Positions 34,795 to 36,303 of a stretch of 64,000 bases of DNA are shown one piece after another. How positions within the stretch are numbered: position 1 is the first letter of the stretch; each line of letters begins with the position of its first letter. Source of the stretch: Natribaculum luteum. Its GTDB lineage: Archaea > Halobacteriota > Halobacteria > Halobacteriales > Natrialbaceae. Made by a program: the position numbers and the translations under genes. The notes beneath the pieces are model-generated. The model worked only from the letters and a program-made list of their open reading frames with translations. It did not search any database and was not told where the DNA came from. The DNA is taken from assembly GCF_023008545.1 (NCBI RefSeq), contig NZ_CP095397.1, positions 3,337,199 to 3,401,198 on the forward strand. Direction: 5' to 3'.

Positions 34795-35745
34795 TCACTC
34801 GACCGTCGGCACCGGCACCGACTCGAGGACGCTCTCGACGATCTGGGCCTTCTCGACCTCGTTGACCGTCGCGTCGGGCGTCAGGACGAGCCGGTGGGCC
34901 ATGACTGGCTGGGCGACGCGTTTGACGTCGTCCGGCGTGACGTACTCGCGGCCGGAGATCGCCGCGTACGCCCGGGCGGCCTCGAACAGTCGCTGCGTTC
35001 CGCGGGGCGAGACGCCGACCTCGACGCGACCGTCGGTCCGCGTTCGGCGAGCGAGCGCCGCGACGTACTCGAGGACGTCCTCGTCGACGCGGATCGTCTC
35101 CGGGACCTGCCGGAGGCGAGCGACGCGGTCGGGTTCCAGGACTGCGTCGACTGCTGGGCTCATCGTCTCGCGGTCGACGCGACGCTGGAGGAGTTCGACC
35201 TCGCCTTCCTCGTCGGGATAGCCCATCGCGGTCTTGACGAGAAAGCGGTCGACCTGGGCTTCGGGCAGCGGAAACGTCCCCTCCTGTTCGACCGGGTTCT
35301 GCGTCGCGATGACGAAAAACGGCTGCGGCAGCGTCCTGGTCTCCCCGTCGACGGTGACCTGTCCTTCCTCCATCGCCTCGAGCAGTGCGGCCTGGGTCTT
35401 CGGCGGCGCGCGATTGATCTCGTCGGCGAGGACGACGTTGCCGAAGATCGGCCCCTCCCTGAACTCGAACGTCCGATCCCGCTCGTCGAAGACGTGGGTC
35501 CCGGTCACGTCGGTCGGCAACAGATCGGGCGTAAACTGGATTCGTGAAAAGGAGAGGCCGAGCGCGCTGGCGACGCTGCGAGCGGTGAGCGTCTTGCCGG
35601 TCCCTGGAACGTCCTCGATGAGGACGTGGCCGCGGCCGACGACGCCCACGAGGACCGTCTCGAGGAACTCGCGGTCACAGACGACGGCGTCGCCGACCGC
35701 CTCGAGGACGGCCGCACACTCCTCGCTCGCCTGGGTTACGTCCAT
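34795..35745 (-). CDS. MoxR-family AAA+ ATPase
   Basis: The 316-residue ATPase starts MDVTQASEECAAVLEAVGDA. It has Walker A EDVPGTGKTLTAR (GTGK at 48-51), the MoxR block RIQFTPDLLPTDVTGTHVFD, Walker B VVLADEINRAPPKTQAALLEAMEE, and sensor 1 FVIATQNP. MoxR proteins are chaperone-like and usually sit with a DUF58/VWA protein, which is absent here. Convergent with ppc, 9 nt between stops. Confidence 0.9.
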   Translation of the reverse strand: MDVTQASEECAAVLEAVGDAVVCDREFLETVLVGVVGRGHVLIEDVPGTGKTLTARSVASALGLSFSRIQFTPDLLPTDVTGTHVFDERDRTFEFREGPIFGNVVLADEINRAPPKTQAALLEAMEEGQVTVDGETRTLPQPFFVIATQNPVEQEGTFPLPEAQVDRFLVKTAMGYPDEEGEVELLQRRVDRETMSPAVDAVLEPDRVARLRQVPETIRVDEDVLEYVAALARRTRTDGRVEVGVSPRGTQRLFEAARAYAAISGREYVTPDDVKRVAQPVMAHRLVLTPDATVNEVEKAQIVESVLESVPVPTVE

Positions 35746-35870
35746 GGGCGTGCTACTCGTCGCCTCGTCTATATGTCTTCCGTCGATCCGACAGACGCGG
35801 GCGTGGGTCGTTCGCACGCGGAGAGACGAATCGAAACCAATAAAATCGTCTGCCGGGTAGGTATAGGTGA

Positions 35871-35955
35871 GCCGAGATAGCCTAGCCCGGCCAAGGCGGC
35901 AGATTCGAAATCTGCTGTCCTCACGGACTCGGGAGTTCAAATCTCCCTCTCGGCG
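35871..35955 (+). tRNA. tRNA-Ser(CGA)
   Basis: A perfect 7-bp acceptor stem pairs GCCGAGA (35871-35877) with TCTCGGC (35948-35954). The anticodon arm GCAGA-TTCGAAA-TCTGC gives anticodon CGA. A long variable arm (TGTCCTCACGGACTC region) marks a class II tRNA, here serine. The T arm contains GTTCAAATC. CCA is not encoded. Confidence 0.95.
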
Positions 35956-36035
35956 CTTTTCCAACCTCACTTTCCACGAACAGCGTGCCGACTGCGAGTA
36001 CGCGAAGACCAGAGAAGGGACACAGGAGATTTGAA
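35935..36035 (+). repeat. 101-bp direct repeat, copy 1 (starts in the tRNA-Ser 3' end)
   Basis: Bases 35935-36035 recur at 36063-36163 (offset 128). The repeat begins at the tRNA T-loop (GTTCAAATCTCC), includes the acceptor 3' strand and runs into flanking DNA, ending GGAGATTTGAA, which is the reverse complement of its own beginning (TTCAAATCTCC). Confidence 0.9.
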
Positions 36036-36062
36036 TCAGGGAGCAGCTTCGCTGCGACCGTG

Positions 36063-36163
36063 GTTCAAATCTCCCTCTCGGCGCTTTTCCAACCTCACTT
36101 TCCACGAACAGCGTGCCGACTGCGAGTACGCGAAGACCAGAGAAGGGACACAGGAGATTTGAA
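36063..36163 (+). repeat. 101-bp direct repeat, copy 2
   Basis: Second copy of the tRNA-Ser 3'-end repeat. The tRNA 5' half is absent here, so this is not a tRNA gene. The 27 bases between the copies form a hairpin base with the flanking GGAGATTTGAA / TTCAAATCTCC arms. Confidence 0.9.
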
Positions 36164-36222
36164 CGAGACGAGACGCAGCCCGGGAAGCGAACGACGTGAG
36201 CGACCCGGACCGTCTTGGCGTT

Positions 36223-36248
36223 GTTCAAATCTCCCTCTTGGCGGTTTT
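36223..36248 (+). repeat. Partial third copy of the tRNA-Ser 3'-end repeat
   Basis: GTTCAAATCTCCCTCTTGGC followed by GGTTTTCC matches the start of the repeat with two or three substitutions and then diverges. It pairs as an inverted repeat with GGAGATTTGAA at 36153-36163. Confidence 0.75.
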
Positions 36249-36303
36249 CCCGACACAACGTGGCGAGCGGTGCGTGGCGCTATGCGTCGCTGAAATACCG
36301 GTT

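Follow-up and report, generated by a model that had tools for sequence, protein, structure and literature searches.

Tandem repeat units built on tRNA 3′ ends and strand-polar hairpins downstream of tRNA genes in Halobacteria

The repeat array at tRNA-Ser(CGA) and its architecture

The window, 64,000 nucleotides of the main contig of haloarchaeal genome G000, bears a tRNA-Ser(CGA) gene at 35871–35956 on the plus strand (ARAGORN; Rfam tRNA score 56.9 bits) that anchors two repeat units. Each unit consists of a tail, an inverted T-arm (X′), a hairpin, and a direct copy of the tRNA 3′ end (X). The stretch copied downstream is the native tRNA 3′ end, X0 (35936–35956, plus strand), which runs from T54 to the discriminator, boundaries drawn from 156 first copies. 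Reading outwards from the tRNA, X0 is followed by tail 1 (35957–36024, plus strand), comprising TTTT and the 3′ flank, then by X′1 (GGAGATTTGAA; 36025–36035, minus strand), a 28-nt hairpin of type A (TCAGGGAGCAGCTTCGCTGCGACCGTGG; 36036–36063, plus strand), and X1 (36064–36084, plus strand), an exact direct copy of the tRNA-Ser 3′ end. The second unit repeats this order with an identical tail 2 (36085–36152, plus strand) and X′2 (36153–36163, minus strand), but its spacer is a different hairpin, the 60-nt type B (CGAGACGAGACGCAGCCCGGG...CCCGGACCGTCTTGGCGTTG; 36164–36223, plus strand), and it ends in X2 (36224–36244, plus strand), a distal and diverged copy of the tRNA 3′ end.

The original prediction had described a duplicated 101-bp unit that begins in the tRNA T-loop, ends in the reverse complement of its own start, and leaves spacers able to form stems. 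The duplication is indeed an exact direct repeat (35935–36035 and 36063–36163), with a third, partial copy from 36223, and each unit closes with GGAGATTTGAA, the reverse complement of its beginning. Folded as RNA, the two spacers reach −32.6 and −40.0 kcal/mol (z −7.9 and −7.0), and none of 200 shuffles folded as well. The T-loop start held, but its boundary had to be refined to G53/T54, and identity to the tRNA extends exactly to the 3′ end. Altogether, the window has the 20-nt tRNA-Ser 3′ end three times (twice exactly, once with a single mismatch) against a chance expectation of 0.01. Such arrays are able to mislead annotation: a minus-strand open reading frame for a MoxR-type ATPase (34795–36258) runs upstream through the tRNA and the array, and its true start probably lies near 35745.

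The same plan recurs at other loci: the tRNA 3′ end from T54, a tail, X′, and a hairpin of a common type, after which comes a further direct copy of that 3′ end. Units are stacked from the T-loop outwards. X and X′ match the local tRNA, so that the arms at tRNA-His, for example, are AGAATCGAA/TTCGATTCT; the hairpins belong to a few types common to different tRNAs and genera. Across the 156 first copies, identity of X to the local tRNA was 99% at G53, less further 5′, 85–96% as far as the tRNA terminus, and about 50% past it, indicating that the copied block is sharp-ended at both the T-loop and the tRNA terminus. X copies carry no CCA, which makes a retro-copy of the mature tRNA unlikely; the sequence did not suit a kink-turn or a modification guide either. 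The units held no genes in the loci examined, and among Rfam models only tRNA reached its gathering score, the arrays matching no known RNA family. Separately, many tRNA genes (e.g. L047 and L073) have 3′ flanks that fold into TTTT-stem-loop-AAAA hairpins, in which the loop, CGAACAA..TCGTGAGC, is conserved and the stem varies; these hairpins occur with an array present or absent (e.g. at tRNA-Ile, L046).

Distribution within the genome and across the class

The inverted T-loop pair ATTTGAA...TTCAAAT with a gap of 20–80 nt was found at 20 places in G000, each with a tRNA gene no more than about 0.5 kb upstream by coordinates; a non-complementary control pattern gave none. Reading all tRNA neighbourhoods of this genome placed the architecture at about 22 of its 42 tRNA genes. 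The original prediction proposed looking for the unit after other tRNA-Ser genes here and in relatives. Of 242 Halobacteria genomes, 212 carry the T-loop inverted repeat, whereas the control pattern had one match among them. Outside Halobacteria the repeat showed only a modest excess over the control. In the two congeners compared, G000 and G001, arrays follow about half of all tRNA genes, and the underlying repeat spans the class.

A scan for the type A hairpin across one genome per prokaryote species found at least 126 copies, and the matches listed came from haloarchaea and two records titled just ‘Euryarchaeota archaeon’. Under strict tRNA settings, 117 of the 126 copies listed are sense-oriented and sit downstream of a tRNA, whose 3′ end matches in 116 cases; the listed copies follow at least 28 kinds of tRNA gene across Halobacteria. 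One listed copy is inverted, and the other eight fall at locus edges (four), after a sequence gap (one, L178), or behind integrase-bearing inserted DNA (three). The inverted hairpin (L160:4118, Halomarina halobia), reversed relative to tRNA-Val(cac), perhaps reflects an inversion between X′ and X. The spread over many loci unrelated to tRNA genes that the original prediction had set against itself did not appear, and the 20 tRNA-linked places, the 212 genomes and the 117 listed hairpins together lend good support to its idea of a tRNA-derived palindromic repeat that spreads, by a mechanism as yet unproven.

Viral contigs scanned for hairpins A and B and the tRNA-Ser 3′ end gave no match, and neither did a search for the repeat in a phage collection. 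A degenerate 3′-end pattern applied to the viral contigs matched, for the most part, ordinary tRNA genes or attP-like sites that have the full T-arm. The one plasmid match was a tRNA-Ser locus, on a replicon that also encodes phosphoenolpyruvate carboxylase. Elsewhere in the two genomes we also observed dense clusters of low- to moderate-score tRNA genes (G000:C2:681274-683007, G001:C1:6995-11080 and G001:C2:586079-588480) that are unlike single chromosomal tRNA genes and possibly of virus or plasmid origin.

Strand polarity and turnover of units

Folding was better on the tRNA-sense strand in 168 of 180 units (mean −29.4 vs −23.4 kcal/mol), and the non-Watson-Crick oppositions on that strand were more often A·G than C·T (576 vs 34) and more often G·T than A·C (153 vs 82), counts that are not independent because the units are related to each other. 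The preference was strong in hairpin types A (93/96) and C (9/9), which dominate the pooled polarity, and absent or weak in types D and F. Since the arms pair equally on either strand (G·T 56, A·C 59), the polarity resides in the hairpin. Tandem G·A and G·U pairs are conserved in the hairpins, compensatory changes in type A gave a covariation score attained by none of 500 shuffles, and the sense-strand preference extends to the tails. On the sequence evidence, the acting form of the sense strand could be either RNA or single-stranded DNA.

Units range from 0 to 5 per array, in place of the constant two copies in all relatives that had been named as a sign of a fixed feature. At tRNA-Ser(CGA) of related genomes both copy number and hairpin types vary, and some loci have no units. 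Between G000 and G001, unit number is unequal at 14 of 42 tRNAs, and the differences fall at T-loop boundaries. The entire difference at Val(gac) is one unit adjoining the tRNA. Leu(caa) likewise differs by exactly one unit (0 in G000, 1 in G001), and the tail of the extra unit copies the local flank with slight divergence, suggesting that units are not simply foreign circles. At Lys(ttt), G001 has a unit otherwise found at Lys(ctt), whole and including its tail; the two tRNAs share one 3′ end. Because deletion between the X direct repeats would also explain a unit-exact difference, the direction of these changes is not proven.

Divergence is greater in the distal than in the proximal copy in 36 arrays, with the reverse in 20 (p = 0.044). 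Where the T-loop of X was mutated, X′ followed in only 2 of 23 cells and 21 remained uncompensated, suggesting that selection does not maintain the arms and that they decay, in the way a mobile element would once inserted. One of the two co-changed cases is the second unit of tRNA-Met at L003/L068, where the T-loop copy and the inverted arm changed together (TTAAAATC with GATTTTAA).

Candidate origins and likeness to known systems

We tentatively favour, at somewhat less than an even chance, the reading that the arrays are a tRNA-anchored mobile repeat whose folded sense strand serves as an attachment-like site for a recombinase acting in trans. The folded X′-hairpin-X strand would display a double-stranded, attachment-like core, with the T-loop crossover TTCAAAT and its flanking arms, and a recombinase supplied in trans, probably a tyrosine recombinase, would join this site to the tRNA T-loop. 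The unit’s own 3′ end would rebuild the tRNA as the old 3′ end is displaced downstream, after which units would be multiplied or lost through homologous recombination between X copies. The features of the arrays fit a folded-strand attachment site best, after the manner of integron attC and CTXphi attP(+). Against mobility stand the lack of an identified recombinase for the arrays, the lack of any copy in the viral or phage collections, and the gene-less units. A more far-reaching proposal, that gene-less mini cassettes insert class-wide into tRNA T-loops through a folded single-strand site, with the tRNA as a platform that is rebuilt each time, strikes us as somewhat unlikely. Should the arrays be mobile, archaea would have their own counterpart of folded-site recombination, with tRNA 3′ ends as landing platforms.

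Units could also form with no dedicated enzyme: the near-identical T-loop would allow template switching and ectopic gene conversion, unequal crossing-over between X copies would amplify or delete units, and the hairpins would persist by promoting these exchanges. The ABAB unit patterns at tRNA-Ser and tRNA-Asp of G001, a fusion between two X′ copies at Gly(gcc) in G000, the local tail copied at Leu(caa), and the weakening of X′ complementarity with distance from the loop all point this way. Sharp G53/T54 boundaries, a conserved sense polarity and a few class-wide hairpin types are not readily explained by such homology alone, and we regard it as an unlikely full account. A role as functional RNA, in which the arrays are a 3′ trailer of the tRNA transcript and their hairpins act in termination, processing or regulation, would suit the preferential folding of the sense strand in hairpins and tails, the conserved tandem pairs, the covariation, and the near-exclusive sense orientation of the listed type A copies (117/126), and would reveal an unrecognised layer of tRNA 3′ biology. 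We nevertheless consider it improbable, as units are present or absent at orthologous tRNAs of related species, 21 of 23 T-loop changes in X are uncompensated and just 2 are followed by X′, the arrays lie beyond the TTTT that succeeds the tRNA, and no RNA role is obvious for a 20-nt copy of the acceptor end.

The original prediction also raised nested scars of elements integrated at tRNA-Ser, and suggested a search for an integrase-bearing element ending in the unit. The genome has 14 matches to PF00589, only two of them near a tRNA, and none lies beside the window’s array, which in this is unlike an integron cassette array next to its integrase (IntI). In Haloterrigena salina (L119), tRNA-Val(cac) is parted from its array by an element whose integrase fragments were recognised by eye in its reading frames, and at L201 and L208 integrase genes (Pfam) lie beside a 13-nt tRNA-end copy with the array intact beyond. 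All three elements end in a tRNA copy that lacks X′ and the hairpin, and all are located between the tRNA and the array; judged by these copy ends and this position, elements and arrays are different things. The proposal is not supported in that form, since units stand at about half of the tRNA genes, hairpins are common to different tRNAs and genera, and integrase elements cut arrays off from their tRNA. That the arrays are nested attR scars of ordinary integrase-bearing elements using the tRNA 3′ end is thus very improbable, even with a classic tRNA attachment signature in the identity block from T-loop to 3′ end and a T-loop copy left by the tRNA-Val(cac) element, because scars are not expected to share a few strand-polar hairpins and uniform spacing across at least 28 kinds of tRNA gene.

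We found no description of the arrays in the open-access literature, a search that misses most subscription papers, and they differ from each of the known systems compared here. Like REP/BIME sequences (PMC2817692), they are extragenic imperfect palindromes in alternating orientation, but REP/BIME are dispersed and have neither a tRNA link nor locus-matched arms, whereas 117 of the 126 listed type A copies are at tRNA genes. A Methanopyrus kandleri palindrome (PMC5217627) also sits directly downstream of many tRNA genes in an archaeon; it is, however, a short fixed CGTTA-N9-TAACG in single copy with no copy of the tRNA 3′ end. The small mobile repeats and palindrome-associated elements of Haloquadratum (PMC3119063) are similarly very short, transposase-free and inverted at their ends, with mobilisation unexplained, but they target IS605-type elements, and no match between their ends and the host locus is described.

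The copied block from T-loop to tRNA 3′ end resembles phage Ms6 T-loop attachment sites (PMC1762012) and archaeal tRNA integration (PMC8371274), and the arrays share with attachment scars an identity block from crossover to tRNA 3′ end. Unlike the arrays, the Ms6 core takes in the 5′ T-stem too (PMC1762012), and tRNA-integrating elements have integrase genes and no inverted T-arm or hairpin (PMC1762012; PMC8371274). The folded attP(+) of CTXphi, integrated by host Xer recombinases (PMC3089051), likewise places two inverted cores around a hairpin; its site is exposed only when one strand folds, as may hold for the arrays. Its target is dif, whereas that of the arrays would be a tRNA, and the arrays have no phage genome. 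Integron cassette arrays, whose attC sites fold as single strands (PMC8946536), differ in having a linked integrase gene; the haloarchaeal units are gene-less and archaeal, use a tRNA T-loop as platform, contain the local tRNA 3′ end, and keep an orientation fixed to the tRNA. Both systems nonetheless consist of short tandem units that appear at one fixed end, and attC (PMC8946536) is also an imperfect palindrome with mismatches, a variable terminal part and strong strand polarity; the array sites, too, fold as one specific strand, strongly so in types A and C and weakly in types D and F.
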